Assembly (NCBI GenBank): GCA_016188575.1
Contig: JACPHN010000043.1
Coordinates: 1 to 47,065 of the forward strand
Length of the DNA stretch: 47,065 bases
Direction of reading: 5' to 3'
DNA from: Candidatus Schekmanbacteria bacterium
Lineage (GTDB): Bacteria; CSSED10-310; JACPHN01
The notes beneath the pieces are model-generated. The model was not told the DNA's origin, did no database searches, and worked only from the letters and a program-made list of their open reading frames with translations. A program made the translations under genes and the position numbers. Positions 7,201 through 44,967 of this stretch are shown one piece after another (the stretch's first letter is position 1; every line of letters begins with the position of its first letter).

Positions 7201-7758
7201 CAGCTCGAATACGACGGGGTGCCGCAGGCTTCGGGGAAGCAACCCGGCGCACGCTGCCGCCAAGGCGGCCGGCGAGCTCGCGTCGCCGAAGAGCCGGATC
7301 TCCTCGAGCAGGGCGTGGAAGTAGCGCCGCAAGTGGGTGTGTTGCGCCGTGACCAGGCGCAGCGGCAGGCCCCCCTCGCAGGCCAGCGTCACCAGAAAAG
7401 CGCGGTTATCGCGGATGGTGAGCAACGGCCGTCGCCACCAGCGGAGGCCACCCAGCACGGCACGGTGGATCACCGAAAACGGAGCCGTCGCGCCGAGACC
7501 ACCCTCCAGCAGTATGGGCCTCCAGGTCCAGGGACCGCCGTCGTGGTTGCGGCGCCACCATTCTGCCCCGAGCAGGCAGAAGCCCGCCTGCCACGCCTCA
7601 TCGCCGCCGATCTCGACCTCCGCGCTGTCGTCGCGCAACGCCACGCCGAGCTGCGCGAGCTCCTCCTCGCCGCACCGGTATCGGTAGAGCGGATCTCCGG
7701 TCGGCGCGCTCAGCCCTCTTCGTCTCAGGAACGCGGTCACCCATGCTCGTGTTCGCAT
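4207..7758 (-). CDS. druH: Druantia type III protein DruH (STY4851/ECs_5259-like)
   Basis: A large 1183-residue protein directly downstream of druE on the same strand. Druantia type III is a two-gene antiphage system of DruE helicase plus a large DruH lacking recognised enzymatic motifs; this gene fits by size, order and the absence of motifs. It is acidic to neutral, Trp/Leu-rich, with no signal peptide or membrane segment. The ATG at 7758 is supported by an in-frame TGA two codons upstream and GGAGG about 13 bases before it. A palindromic repeat copy is translated in frame near residues 515-530. The assignment rests mainly on context and length, so the symbol is less certain than for DruE. 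The mechanism of DruH is unknown. Confidence 0.7.
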   Translation of the reverse strand: MRTRAWVTAFLRRRGLSAPTGDPLYRYRCGEEELAQLGVALRDDSAEVEIGGDEAWQAGFCLLGAEWWRRNHDGGPWTWRPILLEGGLGATAPFSVIHRAVLGGLRWWRRPLLTIRDNRAFLVTLACEGGLPLRLVTAQHTHLRRYFHALLEEIRLFGDASSPAALAAACAGLLPRSLRHPVVFELCGTLVATIWSYRRSLATTARDPIDVLDATTPGWKDTLPLNLSTEVASGLLRGLVDDAVAEAQGVGRRLRVLTALRRGPGGYTIERRIDLPGRVPPAAVATWLDRPGDLLPSHFEVHAAVGGGRARLLAFATRTFQEDDAGSYLLELVAPGVDRLGGEQAMAAIELHATGAARELWDLDVAGAGSLLDSPLVFANAGAEESGERQEWRLLRAGAGRFRASSVLLVPPLGAQWAAEPPAGTARLIGQLLSGFPRDVVEVGGVVRITDALGGEWRIETGADGDDADEHAVRGHYLGGLPGTRVYLGMPGVEHRSGAGARSLVPESELFWRRCSPLPHLQGGQRGGDRVATGDWQALDANQVGEGILAHRPDGDRTRFQERIRVLPAGSTLRLEPGRSPAPGTATGVARLAGTGAVTVASATDNADGDSAGFSAHCSRDPSTGAWTIDLQATDPIPESVPIFLRWQDGASMLLDLPFPRRGAWFGDREGATLTVSRPVQVLCLNGVTAEAALAPGAKPPLLGGHVKSYDAPSGELIAGDWTLREPLQQIAPGRFALDLGRVQARARLLLAMSEDIDAALELTVEHPELPAFPAVRLHVCRYDGVLRPHGELVRLEQASSWESATRPFPLSPEQRAAIRVEAFAVTAPEARVELAAAGEGWVLPRLAAGSGDWLVQAWEGDLARFRPLRLSVSTDPAAPFGPADRPATLAAAAAIARSAVRRPAFDELMASLAMAPDHPEWEHLERYLQTLDGLPATTFDAIKRLAHCPAAAAMALVRSGDPDAFARLWSGLEELPFSWSVVPAPTWLSACRLYRDSLLATMTEAGIEPSLAESLASDSLRAFVARASARRPGMAIVAELVQQRLLRERPENGMLALASSLGGAPCLLSVLESERQRLLRAHADDDWPSWPGIARLRQRLTASAPPGFRGLLVDHQVPHREAVIWAPQLAALACAWGGVALGAAELFQIRQTRDFDPGWFDLAHGVMVALALAAVEAEPSRS
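6172..6215 (+). repeat. dispersed palindromic element inserted in frame within druH
   Basis: CTCTGTCCCCCCTGC followed by AAGTGGGGGAGAGG and GTGAGCACC is a copy of the palindromic element also seen at 2454, 3589, 24626, 27842 and 43930. Read on the minus strand it encodes CSPLPHLQGGQRGGDR within DruH without breaking the frame. Confidence 0.65.
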
Positions 7759-14909: not shown

Positions 14910-15746
14910 ATGGCCCATTCCGGCGGCGAAAACGACTGGCTCGATGCCGCGTTCGCCTGCCCGCCACTCGCGGGGCGGAAAGTCCTCGTTCTCGGCCTTG
15001 GCGGCGGGTCCGATATCATCGCGGCATACGCGGTCGCGCACCTGTTGCGCGCGAGCCGGCCCGCGTCAATGATCTACGCCAACACCAAAAAGCGCGACGA
15101 CGGCACGCTGCTACCGGTCACGGCGCATATCAGCCGGGTCGCGGCGGAGCCTTCGTCGCCCGCTGAGGCCAGCGGGCCCATCCACGGCTCAACCCTCATC
15201 GATCGCGCCGTGCCGCGTGGCGATGAGGGATGCCCGTGGATCTTTCTACTCGGGGATAGCGGCTCGAAAGCGGAAATGGAGCTTCCCGGCGAAATACGGC
15301 AATGCGGGTTCGACGTCGTTTTCGGCGTGGACATCGGCGGCGATTCGCTGGTCCCGAGCGCGAGCAGCGGCAAGCACGGCCGCGACAAACGGATGCTGGA
15401 GGTGCTGCAGCACACACGCCTGCCCCTGCTCCCCGTGGTGGTGTCCCCCGGAGCTGACGGCGAGTCCACATACGAGGAGCTGCTCGACGCCTTCCGCGCC
15501 CATCGCCGCCGCGTCCGGGGGAGCGTGCCGCTCGACGACCCGGCGTTGGAGCTGATGCGGTCGCTGAGCGTCTTTCTGGACCCCGATCGCACCCCGCGAA
15601 TTATCCTCGCGGCCGCGGAGGATCGGCTGCAGTGGAGCCCCCACGGCGGTGTCGTCGTGCCCCGAGGCCGCTACCCAAGCGTACCGCGGGCATGGTTGCT
15701 GCGGGCACTGGTTTTCGCGGACGACGACGCTTGTACCCAACTTTGA
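14910..15746 (+). CDS. DUF1152 family protein
   Basis: A 278-residue soluble protein. The ATG at 14910 is chosen because AAAGGAGG lies seven bases upstream; longer upstream frames read as low-complexity. The N-terminal Rossmann-like strand and loop VLVLGLGGGSDIIAAYAVA (25-43) and the central FGVDIGGDSL (138-147) are the two signature motifs of DUF1152. The biochemical role of the family is not established; the glycine-rich loop suggests nucleotide or sugar-phosphate binding. The gene ends 33 bases before a CARF-RelE gene on the same strand and probably forms an operon with it. That makes a link to cyclic-oligoadenylate signalling worth considering. There is no membrane segment or signal. Confidence 0.7.
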   Translation: MAHSGGENDWLDAAFACPPLAGRKVLVLGLGGGSDIIAAYAVAHLLRASRPASMIYANTKKRDDGTLLPVTAHISRVAAEPSSPAEASGPIHGSTLIDRAVPRGDEGCPWIFLLGDSGSKAEMELPGEIRQCGFDVVFGVDIGGDSLVPSASSGKHGRDKRMLEVLQHTRLPLLPVVVSPGADGESTYEELLDAFRAHRRRVRGSVPLDDPALELMRSLSVFLDPDRTPRIILAAAEDRLQWSPHGGVVVPRGRYPSVPRAWLLRALVFADDDACTQL

Positions 15747-15779
15747 AGTTGCACGTACCAACACCATCAGGAGCTCGTC

Positions 15780-16898
15780 ATGCGGTCAACGTGGTTCGTC
15801 CTTTCCCCCTGTGGAACCAGCCTGCTCAACAACGCCTGCACCGGCGACGAGGAGCGCCGGGCGGTCACTGACAACACCAACGTGAAGGAGCGGGACCAGG
15901 TATCACCCGCGGCTCGCACCGTCCTGGATACGCTGATCGAGCGCGTCGGCTCCAAGCTTCGTGGCGCGGACCGCGCGCAGGCGGCGCGGATGTCCGCCGA
16001 GCTCAACGGCATCACCGCGCTGTATCGCGAGGCCGGGGCAGGCGATTCACGGCCGGACATGCACCAGCTCCTGGCCACCGACACCTGGCTCGGTGAGACC
16101 ACGGCCCAGCTCGTTGCGGAGTGGCTGCGCGGCGAAGGATTCACCGTCGATCTCCGCCGGCAAACCGATCTGCGAACGGTAGAGCTGTCGGAGTTTCAAG
16201 CGGCGCTATCGGACGTCGTGCGCTGGGCGGAAGAAACGCTGCCGGGCTACCGGCAAGAGAAATACCACGTCATCTTCAACCTGACCGGCGGCTTCAAGAG
16301 CGTCCAGGGGTTCTTGCAAACTCTTGCCACGTTCTACGCGGACGAGGCCGTCTATATCTTTGAAACGGGGTCGCTGCTTCGCATCCCTCGCCTTCCCGTC
16401 AAGATGGCGGGCGAATCGACGGTGATGGAGCATCTCGTGGCGTTTCGCCGCCTGTCCTCGCGGCTTGAGGTTGCGGCGCGGGAAACGGAGTCGATTCCGG
16501 AAACGCTCCTGATGAAGCTGGATGGAGGAATCTGTCTATCTGAGTGGGGAGAGCTCGTGTGGCGGCAAACGAGTCGGGCGCTTTATGAGCAAAAAGTATG
16601 GCCGTCACCCAGCGACCGGCTGCGCTACGGCGAGCGATTTCGCAAGAGCGTCGAAGGATTGTCCGGGGAGCGGTTTCGGCTGGTGAACGAGCGCATCGAC
16701 CAGCTCGCAAAGTGCCTGGAGTCGGGTGGGACGTACAATCCCCAATCGCTCGACCTGAAGCCGCTGCGGGGCGACCCCGCGCCGCCCTCGACCCACGAGG
16801 CCGACGCCTGGGCGGACCAGGATGCGAAACGCCTCTTTGGGCATTACGTTGGCGAGGCGTTTGTTCTGGACAAGCTGGACCGCCCGCTTCATCACTGA
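15780..16898 (+). CDS. CARF protein with RelE-like C-terminal domain (Cami1-like)
   Basis: A 372-residue protein. The N-terminal CARF domain has the first ligand loop SPCGTSLLNN (9-18) and the second motif FNLTGGFKSVQGFLQ (166-180), both as in the APE2256/TIGR02619 CARF family that binds cyclic oligoadenylate. A linker region follows. The C-terminal 85 residues (about 285-372) resemble RelE/ParE toxins: a helix RLVNERIDQLAKCLESGG, then LDLKPLRGD, THEADAWADQDAKRLFGHY and a last strand FVLDKLDR. This matches the layout of Cami1, a CARF-RelE ribosome-dependent mRNA interferase switched on by cA4. It is co-oriented with DUF1152. The RelE call is by pattern only; catalytic residues in this family are variable. 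Confidence 0.75.
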   Translation: MRSTWFVLSPCGTSLLNNACTGDEERRAVTDNTNVKERDQVSPAARTVLDTLIERVGSKLRGADRAQAARMSAELNGITALYREAGAGDSRPDMHQLLATDTWLGETTAQLVAEWLRGEGFTVDLRRQTDLRTVELSEFQAALSDVVRWAEETLPGYRQEKYHVIFNLTGGFKSVQGFLQTLATFYADEAVYIFETGSLLRIPRLPVKMAGESTVMEHLVAFRRLSSRLEVAARETESIPETLLMKLDGGICLSEWGELVWRQTSRALYEQKVWPSPSDRLRYGERFRKSVEGLSGERFRLVNERIDQLAKCLESGGTYNPQSLDLKPLRGDPAPPSTHEADAWADQDAKRLFGHYVGEAFVLDKLDRPLHH

Positions 16899-17293: not shown

Positions 17294-18751
17294 ATGCACT
17301 TCCTCAACCGCCACTCCGAACGCCTCCGACTCGACCGACTGCTCGCCAGATCCGACTCGGCCCTCGCCGTCATCTGCGGCCGCCGCCGCATCGGAAAGAC
17401 GCGACTCTTGCTCGAGTGGCGGGCGGTTCATGGCGGCATTTACTTCGTCGGGGATCAATCAACCGCCCCCATGCAGCGAGAGCAACTCTCGCGTGCCATC
17501 GAGGAGTCCTTCCCCGGCTTTGCAAGCGTGGTCTATCCGAGCTGGCGAAGCCTTCTCAGCCGACTTGCGCGCGAAGCTGCCGCCAGAAACTGGCGAGGCC
17601 CTCTCATTCTCGATGAAATCCCCTACCTCGTATCCACTTCGCCCGAGCTTCCAAGCGTCCTGCAAGCGTGGCTCGACACGGAAGCGCAACAGGCTCGCCT
17701 CATTGTTGCCATTGCGGGATCAAGTCAGCGCATGATGCAAGGCATCGTACTGGACCAGTCAGCTCCGCTCTATCAGCGCGCACGCGAAATCCTCGATCTG
17801 CAACCATTGCCGCCCGTCTGTCTGCACGACGCCTTCGCGGTTGGAGACGCCGCCGCATGTGTGCCGCTGTACGCCGCCTGGGGAGGCATCCCCAAATATT
17901 GGGAGCTCGCCGCGGATCTGGGCATGAATGTCTTCGATCAGCTCGAGCATCTGGTTCTCGATCCACTTGGCGCACTGCACAACGAGCCCAATACGTTGCT
18001 GTTCGAGGAGGATCCACCTGCCATCCACGCCCGGCCTCTGCTCGAAGCCATTGGTGCCGGCGCGCACCAGGTTTCGGAGATCGCCGCACGGATCGGCCGA
18101 CCAGCTACCGCGCTCTCCGAGCCCCTCGCTCGCCTCCAGGAGCTTGGGCTCGTGCGCCGCGAAGTGCCGTTTGGCAAAACTCCCCGCGGCACCAAGGTGA
18201 GTCTTTACCGCATCGACGATCCGTTTTGCCGGTTGTGGTTTCGCGTCGTCGCCGGAAACCGCGCCGCGCTCGTTTCGGGTACCAGGGCAACCCGCCTGCT
18301 GTGGCTCTCCCGACATTGGCCAAGCCTCGTTGCCGCTGCCTGGGAGGACTTGTGTCGTTCGGCCGTGGCGCGCCTCCCGCCAGATCATCCACTCGGTCGG
18401 CTCGGGCCTTGGATGCCGGCGTCGCGTTGGTGGGCAGGCCGCGGCGAGCATCCCCCAGGCCAACCCAGCGCAGAATGGGATCTTGTGGCAGACTCATGCA
18501 ATGCCGACCAGGCTCTTCTCGGAGAGGTCAAATGGCGAGAAACGCCACTTTCAGCCAAGGATCTCAGGCATGAAATCAATCGGCTGCGCAAGCGCGTGCG
18601 GCCGCTCCTTGGTCCCAATTATGCCGCTCGCTCGGTGCGATACGTTCTTTGTGTCCCGCAAATCGAAGATGACACCGAACTGGATGACACCGAACTGGAT
18701 GACACCTTCCTTCTAACAGCGGACGCCGTATTCTCTAGCTTCGGAACATGA
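17294..18751 (+). CDS. AAA family ATPase (archaeal-type ATPase with DUF234-like C-terminus)
   Basis: A 485-residue ATPase. It begins MHFLNRHSERLRLDRLL as in this family, then has Walker A CGRRRIGKT (about 32-40), Walker B LILDEIPYL (about 98-106) and sensor-like IAGSSQRMM (about 138-146). A middle winged-helix region (ISxIAARIGRPATALSEPLARLQELGLV) precedes the C-terminal DUF234-type nuclease-like part with EWDLVADS and LLGEVKWR, which resemble a PD-(D/E)xK core (D...ExK). Such stand-alone ATPases are common on mobile islands and their role is unclear. The C-terminal tail holds a 15-bp tandem repeat (18668-18706) encoding TELDD. The start at 17294 fits the family N-terminus; 17270 is a possible alternative. 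Confidence 0.75.
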   Translation: MHFLNRHSERLRLDRLLARSDSALAVICGRRRIGKTRLLLEWRAVHGGIYFVGDQSTAPMQREQLSRAIEESFPGFASVVYPSWRSLLSRLAREAAARNWRGPLILDEIPYLVSTSPELPSVLQAWLDTEAQQARLIVAIAGSSQRMMQGIVLDQSAPLYQRAREILDLQPLPPVCLHDAFAVGDAAACVPLYAAWGGIPKYWELAADLGMNVFDQLEHLVLDPLGALHNEPNTLLFEEDPPAIHARPLLEAIGAGAHQVSEIAARIGRPATALSEPLARLQELGLVRREVPFGKTPRGTKVSLYRIDDPFCRLWFRVVAGNRAALVSGTRATRLLWLSRHWPSLVAAAWEDLCRSAVARLPPDHPLGRLGPWMPASRWWAGRGEHPPGQPSAEWDLVADSCNADQALLGEVKWRETPLSAKDLRHEINRLRKRVRPLLGPNYAARSVRYVLCVPQIEDDTELDDTELDDTFLLTADAVFSSFGT

Positions 18752-19038: not shown

Positions 19039-20118
19039 TCACCTGCGCATGGTGCGCCGGATCCACCCGGCGACAAGCTCGCACTGCGCCTCGCCGGATG
19101 CAGTGGTGTCGACCCGCAGGGGCAGCGCCAGATTGTCGACGGCGTACCGCACGGCGATGACGCCGTGGTCGGCGTCGAGCACCTTGACCGCGGGTCCGCC
19201 GTAGGCCGCGTCATCGTAGGCGACCCGGCTCACGCAGTCGGCGTCGCAAAGGCGCTTCACGAGCCGTTCCCAGCCGTGCGGCCGGTGGTGGTCAATCACC
19301 GAGATTCCGTCCTTCTCCCGCGGCAAGCGGTCGGCATCAGGTGGCCAGGTGGCGCGCGGACCGCTGTCCCGGCGCTCGCGCGCCGCCTGGTAAAGCATGT
19401 TGCCGGCGGCATTGAGGTAGGCGTGGCCATCGGCATCCTCTTCCACGAGCGGCCGCAGCTCGGGGTTCGCCCGCAGCCAGCTTGCCACCTCGCCGCTGCG
19501 CCGCGGCTCGCTGTCGATCCAGGTGAAGAAATCCTCGTGCCGCAGCACCTGATCGATATCCCAGGCGAGTGGGAGTCGCGGCAAGCAGACGATTTTGCGG
19601 AACATCTCGTGCAAATAGTAGACCTCGACGCCGAGCAAGGCGCCGAGCAGGTTGAGAAACGCGATCTCGGCCTTGAAGCCGCCGGTCGCGCAAAACACCG
19701 GCTCCTCCGCGGCTGCCCGCGCCTTCCTTACCTCCGCGATCGCCAGGTCCACGAAGTGGCGCAGGCCGCGCTGGACAAACTTGTCCTGCTGGTAGCCGAG
19801 CGCCTCGATCTCGCGCACCGCCGCCTCCGCGCAAGGCACGACAGCTTCGTAGTAGCGCGCGAGCCGGGCGGCGCAGAAGCGCCCCTCCGCCGTCCCCGAG
19901 CACAGCAGTGCCACGCGGTCGGGGCCGCCCACGTCCAGCGCGCTCAGCGTGTTGGATTCGGCACACGCCTTGACGGGGTCGGCCTTTTCGAGCCACGCGT
20001 CGACGACGGCGGCGTCCGGCAGCGGCCGGCCGTCGCGGACGTTCCAGCCGCCCCACGGGCGCTCCTCGCGGTTAGTGAGCAACGACGTGCCGACAGTCGC
20101 GATCAGTCTTCGGGGCAT
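19039..20118 (-). CDS. APE2256/TIGR02619-type CARF protein of the Cmr operon
   Basis: A 359-residue protein. The N-terminal CARF domain has ATVGTSLLTN (7-16) for ligand loop one, LLCSGTAEGR (71-80), and CATGGFKAEIAFLNLLGA (143-160) for the second motif, diagnostic of the APE2256/TIGR02619 group. A winged-helix-like linker follows. The last 110 residues (HHRPHGWERLVKRL, then GVIAVRYAVDNLALPLRVDTT) form an effector region I cannot name with confidence; strand spacing is compatible with a RelE-like fold. Last gene of the Cmr operon; its start overlaps the cmr6 stop by 16 bases. It is expected to be activated by cyclic oligoadenylate from the Cas10 of this operon. A dead copy of its N-terminus lies at 44175-44296. 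Confidence 0.8.
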   Translation of the reverse strand: MPRRLIATVGTSLLTNREERPWGGWNVRDGRPLPDAAVVDAWLEKADPVKACAESNTLSALDVGGPDRVALLCSGTAEGRFCAARLARYYEAVVPCAEAAVREIEALGYQQDKFVQRGLRHFVDLAIAEVRKARAAAEEPVFCATGGFKAEIAFLNLLGALLGVEVYYLHEMFRKIVCLPRLPLAWDIDQVLRHEDFFTWIDSEPRRSGEVASWLRANPELRPLVEEDADGHAYLNAAGNMLYQAARERRDSGPRATWPPDADRLPREKDGISVIDHHRPHGWERLVKRLCDADCVSRVAYDDAAYGGPAVKVLDADHGVIAVRYAVDNLALPLRVDTTASGEAQCELVAGWIRRTMRR

Positions 20119-21560
20119 GGCGGGCTCCCTTCGAGGCGCACGGCCTTGAGCTTTTTCTTCGCCGAACCGACCAGGTCCGCCAGCACCATGACCGGATGGT
20201 CGCGGGTCGCGGCGTCGAGGGCTGCCCGGGTAGCCGCATCGATGTCGACGTCCTTCTCGTTTCGGCTCACCACGCTGCCCTCATATTCCACGTTCACCGT
20301 GGGCCGCTTCTTGTCGTCCTTGCCAGGCCAGGCCGGCAGCTTCAGCACCAAAATCCCCGCCTTGGCCGGGGCAACTGGAAAATAAACAAGCTGCGCGCCG
20401 AAGCCGCCCGGCAGCTTCAGCACCGAAATCCCCGCCTTGGCCGGCGCTGTCTTCGGGGCCTCGGCGGTGGCCGGCGCCGCTTCCGCCGTCGCCGGCGCCG
20501 CCGCAACCGTGGGGATCAGCCCGATCTCGCGGCAAAACGCCTGCGTCTCCTTGTCCTGCTTCTTCGCCCACGGCCCCCAGAACTCGGGATCCTTGTCACG
20601 CAGCCTCTCCGCCGCCTCGCGCACGTCCTCCGCCTTCACCCCTTGCTTGAGCGCGTCCCGCAGCTTCTCGACGTGCTGCTTCGCCGTCCCCGCGCCGTGG
20701 TGCTGGCCGGCCAGCGCCAGGAGCTCGGTCCGCCGCCGATCCACCAGCGCCTGCCGCGCCGCTCGCGACGCCTCCTCCTTCTTTTCCTCCTCCGACAGCC
20801 GCGGCACGAGCTTCATTCGCCCATAGCCGGCCGCCGTCTTGGCCCCGATGCCGTCCCTCTCGAGCCCGATTCGCAGCCACTCCGCCGCCGCCTCGACCCA
20901 GGCCGCGGGTCCCGAGATCGCCACCAGGTAGCTTCCCGACGCCGTCGCGAAAGCCACCGGGTTGGGCTCGTCCCAGTCCGCCGGGGCCGCGTTGCCGCCG
21001 CCGTAGTAGTCGACGTGGTGCACGGTCATGATGTCGAGCGCCACCGGCAACCGCTTCTCGCCCCCGCCCGGGATCCACCACGCATCGTGAAACGTGACGA
21101 TCCCGGCAACCGTCGTGTCGCCGAACATCTCCCGATGGTCGGCCGCCTCGCCGTGGCGGCGGGCGGTGGCCGCCGCCAGGCCCTTCAGCGCGCTGCCCGG
21201 CAGCACGGGCACGCCCCAGGTGTGCTGCAGCGCCAGGTTCGTCTCCCGCACCGACTGCGTGCCCAGGCCGATGATCAGCCGCCCGCGCGGCGCCTCCGCA
21301 TGCCACACCCGCGTCACGCCGCCCGTCACCCCCCCGTCGAGCATCCGCAGCTCTTGCTCGCGCTTCTGCAGCGCCTCCCGGTAGCCGTCCGGCACCTCGA
21401 TTTTCCCCGCGTCCTCGATTAGCTTGCGGATCGCCTGCTTGTCCTGGTCGCTCTCGCCCGCCATGACCCGCAGGTACTTGTCGAGCCACAACCCGGCGTG
21501 CGCCGTGGCATCCCATGCACCGCATTTCTCTAGCACCTCGCGCCGGCCGTCAGTCGCCAT
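20103..21560 (-). CDS. cmr6: Type III-B RAMP Cmr6 with long C-terminal extension
   Basis: A 485-residue protein. The Cas7-like RAMP core has GLGTQSVRETNLALQHTWG (98-116), the glycine-rich loop LPGSALKG (120-127) and a late GAKTAAGYGRM (239-249). These are Cmr6 signatures; the subunit caps the 3' end of the crRNA backbone. Ordinary Cmr6 ends soon after that motif. Here about 235 further residues follow: a charged helix, an Ala/Pro linker with two APAKAGI repeats (about 386 and 410), and a terminal domain with VNVEYEGSVV and VMVLADLVGSAKKKLKAV. The repeats come from a duplicated DNA segment (about 20341-20370 and 20411-20440). It overlaps cmr5 by 11 bases at its start. The role of the extension is unknown. 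Confidence 0.9.
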   Translation of the reverse strand: MATDGRREVLEKCGAWDATAHAGLWLDKYLRVMAGESDQDKQAIRKLIEDAGKIEVPDGYREALQKREQELRMLDGGVTGGVTRVWHAEAPRGRLIIGLGTQSVRETNLALQHTWGVPVLPGSALKGLAAATARRHGEAADHREMFGDTTVAGIVTFHDAWWIPGGGEKRLPVALDIMTVHHVDYYGGGNAAPADWDEPNPVAFATASGSYLVAISGPAAWVEAAAEWLRIGLERDGIGAKTAAGYGRMKLVPRLSEEEKKEEASRAARQALVDRRRTELLALAGQHHGAGTAKQHVEKLRDALKQGVKAEDVREAAERLRDKDPEFWGPWAKKQDKETQAFCREIGLIPTVAAAPATAEAAPATAEAPKTAPAKAGISVLKLPGGFGAQLVYFPVAPAKAGILVLKLPAWPGKDDKKRPTVNVEYEGSVVSRNEKDVDIDAATRAALDAATRDHPVMVLADLVGSAKKKLKAVRLEGSPPCPED

Positions 21561-21945
21561 CGTCGGACTCCCCCGCCTCGATCTTCAGCTCGCCCTGGAC
21601 GAATCGCCGGTACCATGTCACGCACGCGAGCGCCTCCTGCGTGAGGTGAAGATAACGCCTCAGCTCCGCCCCCCGGACCGCCTCGAGCAACGTGGCCGGG
21701 TCCTCGATCCTCGCGTCGACCCGCGCGAGCTGCCTGGCGAGATGCTCGAGCAGCTTCAGTTGGTTCTGGTCCTTGCGCGAGGCGACGAAATGGAGCGCCT
21801 GGCTCAACCCCGCCGAGCGCAACAGCGCGGGCATTGCGTGCACCATGGTGGCGTATTTCCTGCGCCCCGCCTCGTTGTTCCCGTTCTTCACCTCCTGTAC
21901 GTGCGCGAACGCGAGCCGCGCGCGTTCCTGGTCGAGCATGGCCAT
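21550..21945 (-). CDS. cmr5: Type III-B small subunit Cmr5 (Cas11)
   Basis: A 131-residue, almost entirely helical protein, the usual size of Cmr5. It begins MAMLDQERARLAFAHVQEV, the family N-terminus, followed by KYATMVHAMPALLRSAGLSQAL. The start at 21945 is preferred over 21972 because GGAGGGA precedes it closely and the longer version would only read through the end of cmr4. Cmr5 forms the inner filament of the Cmr complex beside Cmr4 and helps to position target RNA. It lies between cmr4 (2-base gap) and cmr6 (11-base overlap). Confidence 0.92.
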   Translation of the reverse strand: MAMLDQERARLAFAHVQEVKNGNNEAGRRKYATMVHAMPALLRSAGLSQALHFVASRKDQNQLKLLEHLARQLARVDARIEDPATLLEAVRGAELRRYLHLTQEALACVTWYRRFVQGELKIEAGESDDGD

Positions 21946-21947
21946 GG

Positions 21948-22826
21948 TTATCCCTCCATTCGCATGCGGCACAGGCCGCGGCCGACCGTCGCGTTACCTC
22001 CTACCTGAATGGCCTTCCGGCAGGCGATGTCCCGCACCCGTTCCAGCAGCTTCGCCGCGTCGGGCGCCGCGCCGTTCTTTCCGGGCACCGGGGTGGCCAC
22101 CACCAGCCCGACCAGGACGCTTTCCACCGGCAGCGCCTCCTCGGTCCACAGCGCGCCGGGTGCCACGGTCTTGGTCTCGGTGTCGAGCCGGATGCGGGCG
22201 GTGATCTCGGTCGCCGTCTGCAGCAGCACCGCCATCACGTCGTCGTGGATGACGCAGACGCGCGCGGCGAAGTGTTTTCGCTCCTCGTCCTTGTCCTTGT
22301 CCGTGCCGCACAGCCGCTTCGCGAGCTCGTCCGCGAAAGACCGCACCTCCTTCCTCTCGACAGCGGCAAAGTCCAGGTCCTCGAAGATTACCCGATCGCC
22401 CTCTCTCAGGCGCGTGCCGGTCACCCACGCCTCCCCCTCGCGCGGTTCGCCGGGCAGGCGTGCCAGGTCCTCGATGCCAGCGGCGCACGCATCGCGATGC
22501 AAGCGGCGCAGCAGCAGCGGCGAGGTGACCCAGGCGAAGGTCCCGCGCAGGCTGCGGACCGGGAGGAAGGCGAGCAGCGCATCCCCGAACTGGACGCTGC
22601 CGGCGTGATCGGCGGCGTTCTCCGTGTCGGGCCCGAACACCGCGAGGTGTAGCGCATCCACTTCGCCATCGGCGGCGCGCAGCACACCCTTGATGCTGGA
22701 GCCGGGAATCAGCGGCACCCCGGTCGCACGCTCGCGCGCGATCGGCAGGTCGATGCCGCCGATCGCCTGCCCGGTGCCGCAGTGGATGGGGGAGAGAGCA
22801 TGGACGATGAGTAGGCGAGCGTTCAT
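21948..22826 (-). CDS. cmr4: Type III-B backbone RNase subunit Cmr4 (Cas7)
   Basis: A 292-residue RAMP. The N-terminus has HCGTGQAIGGIDLPIARERATG (15-36). Asp26 sits in the loop position of the catalytic Asp of other Cmr4 proteins, which cuts target RNA at 6-nt intervals. The glycine-rich PLIPGSSIKGVLR (38-50) follows. The C-terminus ends with IQVGGNATVGRGLCRMR, also characteristic. Length and motifs are all in place, so target-RNA cleavage should be intact. Its start overlaps the cmr1 stop by four bases (ATGA). Confidence 0.95.
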   Translation of the reverse strand: MNARLLIVHALSPIHCGTGQAIGGIDLPIARERATGVPLIPGSSIKGVLRAADGEVDALHLAVFGPDTENAADHAGSVQFGDALLAFLPVRSLRGTFAWVTSPLLLRRLHRDACAAGIEDLARLPGEPREGEAWVTGTRLREGDRVIFEDLDFAAVERKEVRSFADELAKRLCGTDKDKDEERKHFAARVCVIHDDVMAVLLQTATEITARIRLDTETKTVAPGALWTEEALPVESVLVGLVVATPVPGKNGAAPDAAKLLERVRDIACRKAIQVGGNATVGRGLCRMRMEG

Positions 22827-24079
22827 TGGATCTCCTCGAGAAAGCGCTGGATGGGGTCGGTAAAAACCTTGTCGCCCTTCACCAGCGGCGATGGGCGGCC
22901 GTTTGCACCCAGGCCACGCGCCTCTGCGTCCGTCAGTCGCGTCTTCACTCGCGTCTTCACTTCGTCGTCGCCGAGCACGACCGCGGCGGGCGCCGGGTGC
23001 ACGAGCACGACGGCCATGGCGCGAACGGCGCCGTCGCCGGCGTGCGGTCGCAGGATGAGCCGCGAGGCCAGGCGGCCGTGGTCTTGGGGGAGCAGCGTGC
23101 TATCTTTCGGATCGCCGGCCTTGAGGTCCTTGAAATGAAAGATGATGGGCATGCCGAAGGCGGCGCGCGGGAAGGCGTCGACGATCGTCACCGGTTGGCC
23201 GTGAGCGCGGCAGGATTGGCCGGTCAGCTTGCGAATGGCGTCGGCCTCCGGCCAGTAGGAGCGCCCCGGGTGATTTCCGGCTCCGGACTCGGGGCCGGGC
23301 TTGCGTCCCATTGCCCCTTGGCGCAGCTCACGCAGCTTTCCGAGCAGAAAGTCCAGCGCTTTTCGCCCGTCAACCCAGTTTTTCGTGCCCCACACCGCCC
23401 CGTCCTCACGGCGGGCCGGCAGGTGGGGCCACGGGACGTCGCCGGCGTCGCGCACGAAATCGCGCCATCCCTCGTCGATCGTCGCCACTGCGGGCGCTCC
23501 CTTCTGTTGGATCGCGCCAAACCCGCGCCTCGTGCGGCCGCCGAGCCCCCCGAAATGGGTCCACGCCCACACCGCCGCGTTCACATCATTCGCAAGCGCT
23601 TCGGGATAGCGCAGCGAGATTTCCCATTCGCCATCGTAGGTGTGCAGCACGCCGTGGAGATTCTCGTCTTGGCCCCGAAGCGGAAAGGCTCCGTAGGCGA
23701 GCGCCTCGCAGCCTTTGACAGCGCCGAATTTTCCCTCGAGTACCGGGAGCGACGCGGGTCGCGCGGGCTGCCTGACGACCGTCACCACAAGCGGGCTCGG
23801 CGTCGTCACCGATCCGAAGACGAGCTCCTCGTTCGCGCGAAGCTCCGCGACGTCCCGGCAGCAGCGCGGGTTGCAGGCGCGCCACCAGAAGCGCAGTTGC
23901 CCGCGGATCGAGGCGACGCGGACCGGGGTAATCGGGTCGTAGGGTTTGCGCGCGCCGTCGATGGCGACGCCGCCGCCGAATACGGGAGTCAGGAAGCAGT
24001 AGCGGTAGAGATGCGGCGCGGGAGTAAGCGTCGTCACTTCCGGCACCAGGCCGGGATCGCGGGATGGAGGTGTTCTCAT
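22823..24079 (-). CDS. cmr1: Type III-B RAMP Cmr1
   Basis: A 418-residue protein. The N-terminal RAMP motif VASIRGQLRFWWRACNP (55-71) is typical of Cmr1, which caps the 3' end of the Cmr complex. Later segments are FGSVTTPSPLVVTV, a glycine-rich GGLGGRTRRGFGAI and the C-terminal HGRLASRLILRPH. The ATG at 24079 overlaps the cmr3 stop as ATGA. A longer open frame extends upstream but only mirrors cmr3, so it was rejected. The stop overlaps cmr4 in the same way. A decayed paralogue lies at 1890-2090. Confidence 0.93.
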   Translation of the reverse strand: MRTPPSRDPGLVPEVTTLTPAPHLYRYCFLTPVFGGGVAIDGARKPYDPITPVRVASIRGQLRFWWRACNPRCCRDVAELRANEELVFGSVTTPSPLVVTVVRQPARPASLPVLEGKFGAVKGCEALAYGAFPLRGQDENLHGVLHTYDGEWEISLRYPEALANDVNAAVWAWTHFGGLGGRTRRGFGAIQQKGAPAVATIDEGWRDFVRDAGDVPWPHLPARREDGAVWGTKNWVDGRKALDFLLGKLRELRQGAMGRKPGPESGAGNHPGRSYWPEADAIRKLTGQSCRAHGQPVTIVDAFPRAAFGMPIIFHFKDLKAGDPKDSTLLPQDHGRLASRLILRPHAGDGAVRAMAVVLVHPAPAAVVLGDDEVKTRVKTRLTDAEARGLGANGRPSPLVKGDKVFTDPIQRFLEEIQ

Positions 24080-25260
24080 GCGCCGACTCCGATGGCGGCG
24101 AGCCCGAAACCGTCTCTGCGGTCCTGCTCGCCGTCGCTGATGTTGCTCATCCACATCTGTTGCGCCCACCGCACGCGGTCGTCCGGGCGGCCGTGCAGGT
24201 CGAGCCAGTAGACGCTGCCCGCGCTGGCGGCGCGGCGTGTCGCCTTCGGCCGACGGGTCTCGAAGTCCCACCCGGAGACGGTCTCGGGCCGCGGCACGCA
24301 CGCCGCCACGAGTCGGGGCGTGACGCCGTGGCGTGGGGCGAGCAACTGTTCGCCCGCCGCTCCGGGCCGCCATCCGGCATAAAACAGCGCGGGCGTCAGG
24401 AGCACGAGGCGCACCCGCGCTGCCTCCCCGCGCTGCTTCTTCAGCCAGTCTCGAACCGGTTCGGGCATCCGCGGCAGCTCGAGCTCGGTCGCCCGGTGCC
24501 ACTGCACCAGCCGCCGCTCGCCCCCCGCGGGTGCCATCCCCTCGCGAACCGCGCGCCGCCTCCCCGCGATCTCCGTCTCGGGCACGTCGACGAGCAGCGC
24601 CAGCGGGCGAGCCGCCCCCCAATTCACCTCCCCTCGCCTGCGCTGGGAGGTAGGAGGGGCCGCGAAGCGGAGCCCCACGGTCTCGAACAGCATGCCTTCC
24701 GCCGCCGTCCCGCTCGGCCCGATCGCGACGTGCACCCGGTTTTCGGACGGCAGCGGTCTGATGCCTTCGCGGACAACGGCCGCGGCGTCGAGGCTACCGG
24801 GCGCTGCCAGCCACTGCGCGAAGTGTGCCCATCGCCACCACGCTGGCAGCTCCCGCGGGCCCTTGCCCGGCGGTGCCTCCCCGGCAGGGAGCCCCACGAG
24901 CTGCAGCCCGCCGATGTCGTCGGTCGCGGCACCGTCCGGCAGCTCGATGGGGCGCACCGACCGCGCCTCGATTCGCCCGTTGCGCGCCAGCAACTGGCAA
25001 TCCCGCGGCGCGGGCGCGAGCGCCTCGTTGGCCTCCGGGTCGGCCAGCAACGGCCCTCGTATGCCCGCCAGACGCAGCTCGTCGAGGTGTCCACCGAGCG
25101 CGAACGCACCGTCCTCGTCCGCGCCGAGCCGCGTCCGCGCCAGCCCCGCAACCGTGGACGGGTAGGGAAACGGGATGGTCCGGCTCTCGCTACGCCCGCG
25201 GTTCGGCCGGCCGTCGCGGACGACCAGCGGGTCGCGCGGTTCGATGAACCATAAGGTCAT
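24076..25260 (-). CDS. cmr3: Type III-B RAMP Cmr3 (Cas5-like)
   Basis: A 394-residue protein. The N-terminus IEPRDPLVVRDGRPN (6-20) and FPYPSTVAGLART are Cmr3 hallmarks; the C-terminal part has ETVSGWDFETRRPKATRRA and YWLDLHG. Cmr3 holds the 5' tag of the crRNA next to Cas10. The insertion APPTSQRRRGEVNWGA (about residues 200-216) is encoded by a copy of the dispersed palindromic element and interrupts an otherwise conserved region without breaking the frame. It starts with a four-base overlap on the cas10 stop. Confidence 0.93.
   Translation of the reverse strand: MTLWFIEPRDPLVVRDGRPNRGRSESRTIPFPYPSTVAGLARTRLGADEDGAFALGGHLDELRLAGIRGPLLADPEANEALAPAPRDCQLLARNGRIEARSVRPIELPDGAATDDIGGLQLVGLPAGEAPPGKGPRELPAWWRWAHFAQWLAAPGSLDAAAVVREGIRPLPSENRVHVAIGPSGTAAEGMLFETVGLRFAAPPTSQRRRGEVNWGAARPLALLVDVPETEIAGRRRAVREGMAPAGGERRLVQWHRATELELPRMPEPVRDWLKKQRGEAARVRLVLLTPALFYAGWRPGAAGEQLLAPRHGVTPRLVAACVPRPETVSGWDFETRRPKATRRAASAGSVYWLDLHGRPDDRVRWAQQMWMSNISDGEQDRRDGFGLAAIGVGA
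24626..24659 (-). repeat. dispersed palindromic element inserted in frame within cmr3
   Basis: CACCTCCCCTCGCCTGCGC followed by TGGGAGGTAGGAGGGG is a degenerate copy of the palindromic element. It is translated on the minus strand as PTSQRRRGEV inside Cmr3. Confidence 0.5.
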
Positions 25261-27113
25261 GATGTCACCTCCTCGCCCGCCTGTTCGGCGGCGCGCGCCA
25301 GCAGCGCGGCGACGTACAGCTCGCGCCCGAGCGCCTCCGCCGGATTGTCCTGGCCGTCACCTCTGAGCATCTTGCCCAGCTCCTCGAGCGTCTCCTTCGC
25401 GAGCGCTTCCCGTCCGTGGCAGGCGCGCTTGCGGCCGAGAATGCGCTTCGCCTCGGAAATCTGGATTGCCCTCATCGCCTTCCGGTCCTCGCCGGGCTCG
25501 ACGTGCTCGAGCAGGCGCGCGAGCCCCGCGAGCTCGTAGCCGGCGCGGTCCGGCACCGCTTCGAGGCGATGGAGCGTCGCGAGCATCTCCAGCCGCGCGA
25601 CGAGCCCTGCATCTACTTCCCACTTGCCGTGGACAGAAACCGCTGCCCCGCCGCGTTTTTTCACGATCACCGCGAGCGCGTTGCGCCCGGCATCGTCCTT
25701 CGCGGTACGTTCCGCCCGCCGCGCCAGCGCCAGCGCCTCGTCGAGCGGCATGAGATGGTGCGCCACCGCCAGTCCCACCGACAGCGTCGGCGCGTCTCCA
25801 TCCTCCGCCTGCCAACCGTCGAGCGCTTCGCGAAACGTCTCGGCGAGCCTCGCCGCACACGCGACCGCCGTGTGCAGCGGCACCAGCGCGAGCACGTCGT
25901 CGCCGCCGGAGTAGATGAGCCCGCCGTGGCACTGTTCCACCACCGCTTCGGCTTGCCGGGCGAAGCCGTCGAGCGCCAGCGACAGCTCCCGGTGGCTGGC
26001 GAAGGTGCGCTGAGCGTCGATGACCGCGCCCATCTTGTCGCCGTCGCCGAGCAAGATGGCGTAGTAGGGAACCGGCTCGCCCCGCCTCGCGCAGCGCAGG
26101 AAGCGCCGATACGCGCCATGCACCTGCTCGTAGGCGGTCTGCAGGCCAAGCTCCTCGAGCTCTTCCTGTAGGCGCATGGGAAACAGCACGGCGCCGTCGA
26201 TGCGGCCGAAAAACGACCGCCTCCTGGTGCTCTCCGGCAGGTCCGCAAGCGCTCCGCAGTCGGCGAGCGCGGCCGTGAAGCGCGCCCACTCGGCCGCGAG
26301 CTCGCCGCCGCGCTGCTGCTCGTCCCGTTCGACACCTATCATGAACGGCAGCGCCGCTACGTGCGAGGTGCTGGGGAAGCGTTGCCGCGCGCCGTCCTCG
26401 GCAGGCACGCCGTGGCGCTTGAGCAGCCCGACGCCGCACAGCCGCTCGCTGCCGTGCACGCCATAGGAGCGCCGCAGCCGCTCGCCGCGGGGCGTATCGA
26501 AGAGGCTCTCGTCGAGCACCGACTCGCGCACGCCGTCGAGCGACGACTTCGGCACGCCCGCCTTCGCCCAGGCTGGTTGCGACCACAGCTTGGTGTTCTT
26601 CCGCGCCGCCATGAGCCGCTCCGCTTCGGTTCTCGCCCGCGCGTATCTGTCGTCTCCGGGTCGCTCCGGCACCGACACCCAGCAATACTCGATGAGCGCG
26701 TCGACCTGGGCCTCCGCGACCTGCTCGTGAAAGTGCCGGACGCGCTCGGGGTCGCCGCGGCCGACCTGCGCGAACGCCGCCTGACGCAGCTCCTGCAGTC
26801 GTTCCTGGAGGGCGCGTTGGCCGGCCTCCGCCGCCGCCCGCGCCCGCGCTCCGTCGCCGGGGATGCGTGCAAGCAGGCGATTGGCCGCGGCGTTGTCCGA
26901 TCCTGGTTCGAGGCTCTTGCGCGCCAGCGCCCCCGGAAAGATCAGGCAGTCGATCGCGGCCGCGCCGCCAAGCGCGTCGACGATGCCGGCAGCGGCCGCC
27001 TTGCCGAGCTCGCTGAGCAACCACGACCCATACCAGAAATCCTGGCACCGCCGCGCCGCCGCGATGAAGTCCTGGACCGGTCCAATGGTGACGAGCAGCA
27101 ACTGATCGCTCAT
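25257..27113 (-). CDS. cas10: Type III-B Cas10 (Cmr2), HD-less, cyclase-competent
   Basis: A 618-residue large subunit. It begins MSDQLLLVTIGPVQDFIAAA, which in other Cas10 proteins lies after the HD domain, so the HD nuclease is absent and single-stranded DNA cleavage is not expected. The palm domain has ILLGDGDKMGAVID (about 350-363) and the cyclase core IYSGGDDVLAL with GGDD at 403-406, intact for making cyclic oligoadenylate from ATP on target binding. Length is shorter than HD-containing Cmr2 (about 850-1000). It is the first gene of the operon with a clear promoter upstream. The first 49 residues match the remnant at 44779-44928 in 44 positions. Confidence 0.95.
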   Translation of the reverse strand: MSDQLLLVTIGPVQDFIAAARRCQDFWYGSWLLSELGKAAAAGIVDALGGAAAIDCLIFPGALARKSLEPGSDNAAANRLLARIPGDGARARAAAEAGQRALQERLQELRQAAFAQVGRGDPERVRHFHEQVAEAQVDALIEYCWVSVPERPGDDRYARARTEAERLMAARKNTKLWSQPAWAKAGVPKSSLDGVRESVLDESLFDTPRGERLRRSYGVHGSERLCGVGLLKRHGVPAEDGARQRFPSTSHVAALPFMIGVERDEQQRGGELAAEWARFTAALADCGALADLPESTRRRSFFGRIDGAVLFPMRLQEELEELGLQTAYEQVHGAYRRFLRCARRGEPVPYYAILLGDGDKMGAVIDAQRTFASHRELSLALDGFARQAEAVVEQCHGGLIYSGGDDVLALVPLHTAVACAARLAETFREALDGWQAEDGDAPTLSVGLAVAHHLMPLDEALALARRAERTAKDDAGRNALAVIVKKRGGAAVSVHGKWEVDAGLVARLEMLATLHRLEAVPDRAGYELAGLARLLEHVEPGEDRKAMRAIQISEAKRILGRKRACHGREALAKETLEELGKMLRGDGQDNPAEALGRELYVAALLARAAEQAGEEVTS

Positions 27114-34103: not shown

Positions 34104-35432
34104 TCAGACCGGCAGCATCGGAAAAGCCACCAGCTCCGCTTCGTCGAGCCCGAAGAACCGCAGCGCCTTCGGGAGCAGCCGCTCGAAGGTCTCGAGCCCG
34201 ACGTGGCGATACCCGTGTTCCCGCCAGCAATAGTTGCGCGCGTCCAAGATACCCTTGAGCTCCTGGCGCTGCGCCTGGTAGCGTTTGCCGTAGGCGTCCC
34301 CGTACTCGTCGAGCAGCGCGTAGGAGGCTTCCAGCGGGAGCTTCACGGTGACGCCGCCATCGTCCGAGTGCTTCTCCGAGAACGCCTCCCGCAGGCCACC
34401 GAGGCTGCTCACAGGGCACTTGCTGTTGTCGACTCCGTGGACGCTCAACAAGCGCCCACGCGCCAGCTTCTCGATGGCGGCATACAGGAGCATGACCCCA
34501 TCTTCGGGGTCGGTCTCGCGCCGAGCGCGGCGGCAGGCGGCGGCGCACAGATCCCGCGGAATGGCCAGACCGTCGATTCCGGAAAAGAGCTTCGACGCCG
34601 GTGCGCCGGGTCTTGCTTCGTACAGGTCGAAGCGGTGCCACTCGGTGTGCACCGCGTCGAGCCGCGCCGCGGCCGTTTCCAGAGCGGGAAGCGCGGTGGC
34701 GATCGGCGGGTGCCCCCCCGCATCTGCGTAGATGCGGAGCGCCGGGAGGGCCGCCTGCATCGCCTCGTGGGCCGGGCGGTAGCGCTGGCGGTCCCAGGCC
34801 GCAATGGCGCGGAAAAGCTGGCGGAGCGTGCCGGCGTAGGCGTTGCGCCCGTCGGCGCGCGGTTCGGGCACCAGCGCCAGCGCCGCTTCGAATCGGAGCT
34901 CGTTGAACGCCGCGATCGCCGCGCGGATGCGGTCCTCGGCGAGCTGTTGCCAGGGGTTCGGTTCCAGAATCAGCCTCTCGCGCCCGTCGATGACCACGCC
35001 GACGCCGCCCTTGGACCGCGCCTCCTCGTCGGCCGAACCGACGTAGGAGAAACGGGCGCCGCGATCGGCAAAGGCCAGCACCGCCGCTGCCGACATGACC
35101 TTGGTGCCGCCGGTGAAGTCCACGCACGCATCGGCGGGGTCGATGCCCCAGCGCTCGAGGATTTCGGTTACCCGCAGGCGCAGGGCCTTGTAGCATTCGT
35201 CGAGCAGCTCGGCGGACGGCGTCACCACGATTTCGAGGCCGAGGTGGTGGTAGTCGGGCGGCAGCTTCGGCAGGATGTCGGTTTCGATGGATCCCGCGGT
35301 CTGCGGCGAGGCGAGAAAGATCAGCTTGCGCGGGCGCTGCCGCGCAATGGAGGCGATGAGCGGCGCGGGTGCTCCGCCGACGGTGAGAATCATCGCGGCG
35401 GGTGCCGGCGCCCGAGACTCTGGAGGGGACAT
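34104..35432 (-). CDS. TIGR02710-family CARF-HEPN ribonuclease (Csm6-like)
   Basis: 442 residues. The N-terminal CARF domain has MILTVGGAPAPLIASIAR (14-31) and FLASPQTAG for the first loop, and ACVDFTGGTKVMSAAAVLA (102-120) for the second; this pairing defines the TIGR02710 (Cas02710) family. The C-terminal helical HEPN domain carries DARNYCWREHGYR, in which Arg399 and His406 give the R-x6-H ribonuclease motif. It should be a cyclic-oligoadenylate-activated RNase. It is the last gene of the III-D operon, 30 bases after the TIGR03986 RAMP. No truncation is seen. Confidence 0.88.
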   Translation of the reverse strand: MSPPESRAPAPAAMILTVGGAPAPLIASIARQRPRKLIFLASPQTAGSIETDILPKLPPDYHHLGLEIVVTPSAELLDECYKALRLRVTEILERWGIDPADACVDFTGGTKVMSAAAVLAFADRGARFSYVGSADEEARSKGGVGVVIDGRERLILEPNPWQQLAEDRIRAAIAAFNELRFEAALALVPEPRADGRNAYAGTLRQLFRAIAAWDRQRYRPAHEAMQAALPALRIYADAGGHPPIATALPALETAAARLDAVHTEWHRFDLYEARPGAPASKLFSGIDGLAIPRDLCAAACRRARRETDPEDGVMLLYAAIEKLARGRLLSVHGVDNSKCPVSSLGGLREAFSEKHSDDGGVTVKLPLEASYALLDEYGDAYGKRYQAQRQELKGILDARNYCWREHGYRHVGLETFERLLPKALRFFGLDEAELVAFPMLPV

Positions 35433-35462
35433 CGCTACTTCCTTTGAGGTGGTGGATCCTGG

Positions 35463-36569: not shown

Positions 36570-36572
36570 CGC

Positions 36573-37163: not shown

Positions 37164-37166
37164 CGC

Positions 37167-41146: not shown

Positions 41147-41157
41147 GCGCCTCCTCC

Positions 41158-42054
41158 TCAGTCGGCCGCCAGCTCGTCGACGGTGTCCCACGTGGTCGGG
41201 TCGTCCCACGGCCCTTCGCCCACCTCGTGGGCCATTTCACAGATCGCGCGGAGCCGCGACGGCCCCCTGTCGGTTCGGACCTTCTCGAGGCGTCCGAAGA
41301 GGACGTGGGCATTCGCCAGCCCCAGCGGTCTGAGCAGCTCCTGGGAGGCGATCTGCTGCCAGTCGCCCCGCCCGCGTCGCGCGCGCAGAGACTCGATGGT
41401 CACCGCGCACCCCCCGGCGCCGGTGGAACGGTCGCCCCCCAGGCGGTCGAGCGTCTGCAGAGCGGCCACGAGGAGGCTCCACTCCACCGGCCAGGGCGAC
41501 AGATCCGGGACGGAAACCACGGACACCCGTTTGGGCGCGTGCACCGCGGTGATCGCGCCGCGCAGGGTCATCGCGGCGGCGTGCTCGGTGATGAACAGGC
41601 GGTGCTCTTTCGCCCGGCCGAGCGCGCGGTCGATGCTCACCCGGGTCAAGACCGGCAAGTTGTCGTCCGTGGGCTGCTCGGTGGGTAACAGGTTGTCCAC
41701 GAACAGGCAGTCTCCCGCGAGGCAGGTTCCGAACAGACGTTCCGCGAGGTTGCCGCCGGCCGCGAACCCTGCCCGCCGCCGGGCGGCCGAGGCGTCGGCG
41801 ACATGGGGGTCGGTCGCCTCGCATCCCAGCGCCAGCGCGATCTGCTCGCACCGATTGCGCAGCAGACCCTTGACGTGCGAGCCCATTATCATGGGCTTTT
41901 TGTCGGCCGAGCGCAGCACTGCGCGGTCGGCCGCTCCCCGCGACTCCCCGCTGCCCGAGTGCCAGCGATCGGCGAGCGCCACCGCATACTGAATGTCCAG
42001 AATATATGGCGGCGCGGCGACGGATGCGCGCGCCGCCGACTTCGTCTCGATCAT
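41158..42054 (-). CDS. Cas7-like (Csm3-like) type III-D RAMP, second in operon
   Basis: 298 residues from the ATG at 42054, which overlaps the cas10 stop (ATGA). VALADRWHSGSGESRGAADR (25-44) is the first RAMP loop, with Asp43 a candidate catalytic residue, then PMIMGSHVKGLLRNRCEQI (54-72). It ends with an acidic tail, WDDPTTWDTVDELAAD. It is a backbone subunit of the III-D complex and may cut target RNA. Compared with the other two Cas7-like genes it lacks the Cys pair, and its Gly-loop has Met-Gly in place of Pro-Gly. Confidence 0.85.
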   Translation of the reverse strand: MIETKSAARASVAAPPYILDIQYAVALADRWHSGSGESRGAADRAVLRSADKKPMIMGSHVKGLLRNRCEQIALALGCEATDPHVADASAARRRAGFAAGGNLAERLFGTCLAGDCLFVDNLLPTEQPTDDNLPVLTRVSIDRALGRAKEHRLFITEHAAAMTLRGAITAVHAPKRVSVVSVPDLSPWPVEWSLLVAALQTLDRLGGDRSTGAGGCAVTIESLRARRGRGDWQQIASQELLRPLGLANAHVLFGRLEKVRTDRGPSRLRAICEMAHEVGEGPWDDPTTWDTVDELAAD

Positions 42055-43592
42055 CTCACCAACTGGTAGCATTCGTAGAGCTCCGTGAAGAACGTACCGG
42101 CACCGCTGCCGAAGGGGGGCAGGCCACCGCCGCAAAGCTCGTCCACCGCGTCTTCGAGAAGTCCTCGGTGGCTATCCTTCAGGTGCGCGAGCACCTCGAT
42201 GGCGCGAAACTCGGCGGCGCGGCGCGTCGGGGCCATCGCGGCGCCGGCGAGCGCCGCGGCCTTGCTGTTCGGGAATTTTCCCTGGCGCAGGTTGCTGGCG
42301 AGCTCCAGCAGCGTTTTCAGCTTCGCCGGCTCGTACGGGCGCAGGGTCCGGAGAAAGGACCCTGTGTTTCCCTTCGCGGGGCCATCGAAAACAAACTCGG
42401 TCTTGCGAGCTTCCGTGACCTCGCGCACCATGGAGCTCTTGACGATCTGGAAGTCGACGCGCGCCTGTGTTCGCGGATCGCTCGCCCCGGTGGTGCGCGC
42501 CGCGTCCTTCTTCGCCGAATGGAGGAGTTGCTCCGCCTGATCGAAAAGCAAGTGAAAGGGGTGGCGGGCGCGTCCGACGGCGACCCCGACGGAGATGCTG
42601 AAGCCGTGGCGACACTTTTCCCGGAGCCAGGGAGTCCCGTCCTTCGCCACCGCGCGCCCGGAGCGGCGTTGAAACGCCTCCGGCAGCTCGGCCGCGAACC
42701 GCAGCGCCGCGCTGGCGGGGAGCACCATGACGACGTCGTCTCCGCCGAGCAGCAGCGGCAGGGCCTGCAGGTCATGTTCGCGGATCACCTCGTAGCTCGC
42801 CTCTCGAACCGAGTCGTCCACGATTCTTGAGAACGCCCGGTAGGACTCCTTGTCGGGAATGTCCTGCACGACCTTGCCCATGGAGTTGCCATCCGCGTAG
42901 ACGACTCCGATGTAGCCATGCCGGCCCGAGCTCAATTCGCCGACCTCGTCGAGGGTATCGCAGGGGGGCCATCCGACCGCGTCCTCGAAGGCGCTCCACA
43001 AGTGGCTGTGCGCGGCGCCCGGCCGGCGAATCTCGTGTGCCTTCGCGAGCTTGCGGCGGGTGAGCTCGGATACCCAGCGCACGTCGTCGCCGCCCTCGGG
43101 GCGAGCGATGCCGGCGACGTTGGCGCACACGCGCGCCGGCCGAGCGCCGAGGCTCGCGCACTCGCGAACCAGCGGGGCGGTGGCGACGGCGGCGCGCACC
43201 GGCGCGGCCCACCGGCGGCGGCGCAGGTCGCGGTGCGCGGCAGCCACCGCTGCCTTGTAGCCTTGCCCGTCCAACCTGGCCAGACCGTAGACGAGCGCGA
43301 TGCCACCCGCAAACACCTCGTCGACATCGCACGCCACCCGCACCAACCCCTCGTCGAGGCGCTGCTCGTCAGCGCCGCCCGCCTCCAGCACGAGCTGACC
43401 ACCGCCGCCGTTCGCGTAGACCTCCTCCACCGCGGTCGCCCGCGGCAGGTGCCGGCGGATGCGCTCCACGAGCTCGTCGCGATTGAACGCGTCGAGTAGC
43501 GCGCTGGCTCCTTGTATCTCGCGCAGCGTATCAGTGGCGAAGACAAACTCCTTGATTCCGGGGAAGTCGATCACGACTACATGTTGCGACAC
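42051..43592 (-). CDS. cas10: Type III-D Cas10, HD-less with GGDD cyclase motif
   Basis: 513 residues, started by GTG at 43592 after GGAGGAGGAAGC. It opens MSQHVVVIDFPGIKEFVFAT, the first palm strand, so the N-terminal HD nuclease is absent. Later are HGYIGVVYADGNSMGKVVQD (about 226-245), the metal-binding Asp of palm domain two, and LLLGGDDVVMVLPAS with GGDD at 283-286, intact for cyclic oligoadenylate synthesis. The following HGFSISVGVAVGRARHPFHL and helical C-terminal domain D4 complete a Cas10 of the short, csx10-associated type. First gene of the III-D operon. It is clearly distinct in sequence from the III-B Cas10 of this window. Confidence 0.93.
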   Translation of the reverse strand: MSQHVVVIDFPGIKEFVFATDTLREIQGASALLDAFNRDELVERIRRHLPRATAVEEVYANGGGGQLVLEAGGADEQRLDEGLVRVACDVDEVFAGGIALVYGLARLDGQGYKAAVAAAHRDLRRRRWAAPVRAAVATAPLVRECASLGARPARVCANVAGIARPEGGDDVRWVSELTRRKLAKAHEIRRPGAAHSHLWSAFEDAVGWPPCDTLDEVGELSSGRHGYIGVVYADGNSMGKVVQDIPDKESYRAFSRIVDDSVREASYEVIREHDLQALPLLLGGDDVVMVLPASAALRFAAELPEAFQRRSGRAVAKDGTPWLREKCRHGFSISVGVAVGRARHPFHLLFDQAEQLLHSAKKDAARTTGASDPRTQARVDFQIVKSSMVREVTEARKTEFVFDGPAKGNTGSFLRTLRPYEPAKLKTLLELASNLRQGKFPNSKAAALAGAAMAPTRRAAEFRAIEVLAHLKDSHRGLLEDAVDELCGGGLPPFGSGAGTFFTELYECYQLVR

Positions 43593-43975: not shown

Positions 43976-44174
43976 AATGGCGCAACAGCGCGGTCACGCG
44001 AACGGGCGAAATCGAGCGCTGAAGGGTCCACGGGATTCCGGCGATCCTGCTCCAGTGCCCGCCGGGAAAAAGGGAAAACCGCCTCCAACCCGCTGAACCG
44101 CTCCCGCCACCAGACCACGAGCTGCTGGCACCGTGGCCGCAAAGCAGCGGCGGTGTCGAAATCGCGGTTGCGGT

Positions 44175-44296: not shown

Positions 44297-44297
44297 G

Positions 44298-44928: not shown

Positions 44929-44967
44929 GTCCCGCTCCCTCAGACTGGTCACACGCCTCACCCGGCC

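Follow-up and report, generated by a model that had tools for sequence, protein, structure and literature searches.

Does the proximity of two genes reveal a functional partnership, or only their common residence in a defence island? The question is raised by a contig of Candidatus Schekmanbacteria (JACPHN010000043.1 of assembly GCA_016188575.1), analysed over its whole length of 47,065 nucleotides and referred to here as the window, in which a gene encoding a DUF1152 protein (PF06626) closely precedes a gene encoding a CARF protein with a RelE-like C-terminus. No paper on DUF1152 or PF06626, and none naming a function, was found in the open paper library searched; a functional pair would therefore offer DUF1152 a role in CRISPR signalling that could be put to the test.

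Organisation of the locus

The DUF1152 protein of the window passes the Pfam model PF06626 (40.2 bits for a gathering cut-off of 27, E 3e-10) and has no match among the PADLOC and NCBIfam models. Its gene carries the SD sequence AGGAGG 8 nt ahead of the ATG and a coding-type GC distribution by codon position (0.72/0.51/0.81), and the CARF-RelE gene is likewise preceded by an SD-like AGGAG and is of coding type (0.68/0.46/0.78). A scan of the gap between them for terminator-like and promoter-like sites was negative, so that a common transcript is possible. The coordinates, plus strand and 33-base spacing proposed for the pair by an earlier sequence-only reading were all reproduced (Table 1), and the motifs GLGGGSD and VDIGGD that it placed at residues 29-35 and 140-145 of the DUF1152 protein are present there.

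Table 1. Features of the window, with the evidence for each assignment.
Feature	Position	Strand	Evidence
DruH homologue, Druantia-type	4207-7758	-	PADLOC E 1e-67
Large DEAD-box helicase with MZB domain	8028-13652	-	Domain match; DruE by inference
Divergent DUF1152 protein, 278 aa	14910..15746	+	PF06626, SD, coding GC pattern
Intergenic gap, 33 bases	15747..15779	.	SD-like AGGAG inside
CARF7 CARF-RelE effector, 372 aa	15780..16898	+	PADLOC PDLC01934 E 4e-125; 43% identity to Sll7062
ATPase_2 / DUF234 ATPase, start approximate	17294..18751	+	Domain match
CARF7 CARF-DUF2103 protein	19039..20118	-	PADLOC PDLC01931 E 4e-126
Cmr6	20103..21560	-	TIGR01898 E 3e-32
Cmr5	21550..21972	-	TIGR01881 E 8e-14
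Cmr4	21948..22826	-	TIGR02580 E 6e-70
Cmr1, start approximate	22823..24064	-	PADLOC Cmr1 E 2e-26
Cmr3	24076..25260	-	PADLOC Cmr3 E 8e-67
Cas10/Cmr2 (III-B)	25257..27113	-	GGDD at residue 403; HD dipeptide absent
Csx1-type CARF-HEPN effector	34104..35432	-	PADLOC CARF1--CARF_HEPN E 4e-56; RxxxxH present
Cas10d (III-D)	42051..43592	-	GGDD at residue 283

The contig encodes two type III systems, III-B (cmr genes, 19-27 kb) and III-D (35-43 kb), together with three CARF effectors. With the GGDD motif kept in both Cas10 proteins, synthesis of cyclic oligoadenylates (cOA) would be expected. Druantia-like genes lie upstream of the DUF1152/CARF pair and divergent from it, and DUF1152 sits between this Druantia-like operon and the CARF gene; the DruH-like gene and the DEAD-box/MZB helicase probably form a Druantia type III system adjoining the CRISPR island.

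The III-D cluster (34104-43592, minus strand) comprises Cas10d, Cas7-type RAMPs, a Csx19-like gene and the Csx1 effector. At about 43994-45037 a Cmr6-like C-terminus runs into a truncated CARF7-DUF2103 N-terminus, an apparent remnant of another III-B locus, to which a 147-nt stretch (44782-44928) that matches the beginning of the intact cas10 (26967-27113) at 89% identity appears to belong as well. Within the C-terminal extension of Cmr6 a 40-nt sequence occurs twice in near-identical form at a distance of 75 nt (20333-20447, minus strand) and gives protein repeats of the form PAKAGIxVLKLPG.

The CARF-RelE effector

The CARF domain of the protein is recognised by PF09651 (E 3e-30), by TIGR02619 over its cut-off and by PADLOC as CARF7, and the whole protein spans the PADLOC family CARF7--CARF_RelE (PDLC01934, E 4e-125) over its full length. 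Its C-terminal 108 residues alone align with positions 260-358 of the 359 positions of this profile, that is with the RelE part (E 1e-22), and are 40% identical to the same region of Sll7062 (SyCsm6) of Synechocystis PCC 6803. Since comparison of the C-terminal domain with Pfam and with the PDB sequences gave no direct match to a RelE model or to a solved RelE, the RelE assignment rests on the described PADLOC family; at this family level the sequence supports the earlier proposal of a CARF protein with a RelE-like C-terminus. Residues S14, E74 and K173 correspond to S12, E70 and K167 of SyCsm6.

From the membership in CARF7--CARF_RelE, the likeness to SyCsm6 and the presence of III-B and III-D systems on the contig, we conclude that the protein is an ordinary ancillary effector; the effector assignment is correct, and the kind of effector is already known. 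By analogy, it would most simply be a self-limiting, cA4-activated translation inhibitor of the kind represented by SyCsm6 and by Cami1, the CARF-RelE protein of Mogila et al. 2023, for which cA4 activation and ribosome-dependent cleavage are published. A Cas10 whose GGDD cyclase motif is intact would, on binding target RNA, produce cA4, which would bind and activate the CARF7 domain as in the published relatives; the RelE domain would then cut mRNA at the ribosome and halt translation, as does Cami1, and the CARF domain, if it is a ring nuclease like that of SyCsm6, would slowly cleave cA4 and so reset the system. Gene identity, domain order, the ligand and ring-nuclease residues and the GGDD motifs of this scheme are established here, and its activities are borrowed from published relatives.

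Distribution of DUF1152 with respect to CARF genes

DUF1152 is carried by 10 of 386 sampled bacterial genomes, by 36 of 247 genomes sampled around an archaeal centre and by 2 of 386 Cyanobacteria, the phylum of this last set being read from the Synechocystis-type plasmids that it contains; CARF-RelE, by contrast, is found in 36 of the same 386 Cyanobacteria. Two further phylum-level samples comprised nine and five genomes.

The sequence-only reading had taken DUF1152 for a partner of the CARF protein in cyclic-oligoadenylate signalling, with adjacency in other genomes as the test set beforehand, and the counts from both sides do not support this proposal. Among 46 other DUF1152-bearing genomes, none has a CARF7 gene within 50 kb of DUF1152: CARF7 genes occur in nine of them and share a contig with DUF1152 in five of these nine, always more than 50 kb apart. 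In two other bacterial genomes with both families (G134 and G966), the DUF1152 and CARF7 genes are on separate contigs. Conversely, in a set of 49 other neighbourhoods of CARF7-type genes (5 plasmid and 44 genome, mostly about 5 kb per side), the DUF1152 profile, which gives the window protein 176 bits, found no DUF1152, no score exceeding 7 bits. By the rule of three, 0/49 places DUF1152 in less than about 6% of such CARF7 loci, which are mostly cyanobacterial and thus from a phylum where DUF1152 is rare. A cOA accessory would be recognised by its repeated occurrence next to CARF or cas genes, and DUF1152 showed none (0/49 and 0/46). Ten proteins directly flanking other DUF1152 genes gave one viperin-like match and no defence family beyond it.

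Divergence and fold of the DUF1152 protein

The eight columns that are invariant in 41 DUF1152 sequences (GGGxD, DxGxD and D159) are all kept in the window protein, and these Gly and Asp positions are its common ground with the canonical archaeal members of PF06626. By contrast, it is only about 20-25% identical to them, is without G150, E152 and both the WER/DPxPGP and the C-terminal segments, and retains 21 of the 48 positions that are at least 90% conserved in the canonical family. The description of its glycine-rich motifs as intact thus applies to the Gly/Asp motifs and does not extend to its other conserved positions; the window protein may bind a related ligand or may have lost its activity. 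No close relative of the window protein was found in viral contigs, plasmids, phages, 98 genomes (protein search) or the GTDB species genomes, the last of which contain at least three confirmed archaeal canonical DUF1152 members among the candidates listed.

Elsewhere in the same genome (L005, G000:C265, 10170-11825, minus strand), adjoining hydrogenase-type genes, a SLOG-cluster-4 protein resembles the window DUF1152 in part of its C-terminal region (32% over 114 aa, E 6e-6) and is possibly a SLOG/DUF1152-like fusion.

Structure prediction, also called for by the sequence-only reading, succeeded for an archaeal DUF1152 protein (AlphaFold, mean pLDDT 86, pTM 0.89) and gave for the window protein a model too poor to interpret (pLDDT 46), so that the Foldseek list of the latter was used only for the recurrence of PIG-L enzymes in it. 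The archaeal model has an alpha/beta Rossmann-like fold, and its top structural neighbours are PIG-L/LmbE N-deacetylases (best Z 10.7, 184 aligned residues, rmsd 3.4), which form one consistent group (Z 8.4-10.7 over about 185 residues) above unrelated entries at Z 6.8 or less; the closest solved folds are MshB, teicoplanin Orf2 and the archaeal Dac. These enzymes are 10-17% identical to DUF1152. PIG-L enzymes carry an HPDD motif with the zinc histidine, whereas the GGGxD motif of DUF1152 has no His; judged from the aligned ranges alone, GxGGGxD at the end of the first strand would take the place of HPDD. With the zinc histidine missing, the likeness does not point to a zinc deacetylase mechanism. 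A CARF-like origin of DUF1152 is not supported (profile-profile comparison with CARF-RelE, probability 1%); the Csa3 CARF appears among the fold matches to the archaeal model with Z 6.3 only, in the background range, and indicates no special CARF likeness.

Interpretation of the gene pair

We think it probable that the CARF-RelE protein serves the type III systems of the contig as a standard ancillary effector and that DUF1152 is most likely a bystander: the two are probably accidental neighbours because their pairing was seen in no other genome examined, and the proposed partnership was drawn from a single adjacency. DUF1152 is itself most likely a rare, divergent member of a presumed-enzyme family whose Rossmann fold is PIG-L-like, and one that came to lie in a defence island. 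This island, with its Druantia-like DruH and Druantia-type helicase, and the PIG-L/LmbE N-deacetylases as best structural neighbours of canonical DUF1152 would also suit the capture of a second gene, for defence or metabolism, that has no connection with CARF and might encode a PIG-L-like hydrolase or a nucleotide-sugar enzyme; the GGGxD motif, however, is without the zinc histidine of HPDD, and we give this explanation little chance.

Counting against a bystander, the genes share a strand, stand 33 bases apart and each have a good SD, an arrangement that resembles an operon of two genes, and the intact reading frame of DUF1152 suggests that it is of use in this lineage; moreover, the counts concern mostly cyanobacterial CARF7 loci, and the branch of the window DUF1152 is one for which no close relatives were found. 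A lineage-specific accessory, co-expressed with CARF-RelE and modulating it, for instance as a protein that breaks down or sequesters cA4 or restrains RelE, would fit the tight co-directional spacing without a terminator, the Rossmann-like fold and the conserved pocket of Gly and Asp residues, which the window protein has not lost, and a precedent exists in Cam3, which is always directly downstream of Cami1 (PMC11229360). We nevertheless regard such a role as unlikely, as the DUF1152-CARF7 pairing recurs in none of the other sampled genomes, many conserved DUF1152 positions are gone from the window protein, and the CARF-RelE protein itself has ring-nuclease residues, a separate ring nuclease being present in only about 30% of Cami1 loci (PMC12409355). 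That a divergent DUF1152 of PIG-L-like fold should serve CARF-RelE as its lineage-specific accessory, as a cA4-handling enzyme or a RelE brake for instance, we consider improbable; an accessory role, if true, would be the first function for DUF1152. With DUF1152 as a probable bystander, the locus contributes, as the evidence stands, a further CARF-RelE effector, in a phylum that is poorly sampled and on a contig where two type III systems and altogether three CARF effectors occur, and is a warning against function inferred from one adjacency.

Comparison with known CARF-RelE proteins

A comparison with Cami1, proposed in the sequence-only reading, holds in part: the CARF domain of the solved chain 8phb is matched by the CARF-RelE family profile (E 1e-19) and the order of the domains is equal, whereas the RelE parts do not align at the sequence level and Cami1 forms a separate branch. 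The solved chains 8phb and 8phj we take to be Cami1.

Among named proteins, the nearest relative found is Sll7062/SyCsm6, 43% identical from end to end, the C-terminal domain included. It differs in being the last gene of a III-D operon, without a DUF1152 neighbour. Experimentally, SyCsm6 cuts cA4, as a ring nuclease, and cA6, K167 being required for activity, and in vitro, without ribosomes, RNase activity was absent (PMC9676260). The S/E/K ligand and ring-nuclease residues are common to SyCsm6 and the window CARF-RelE protein, and both have type III CRISPR genes and Csx1 nearby.
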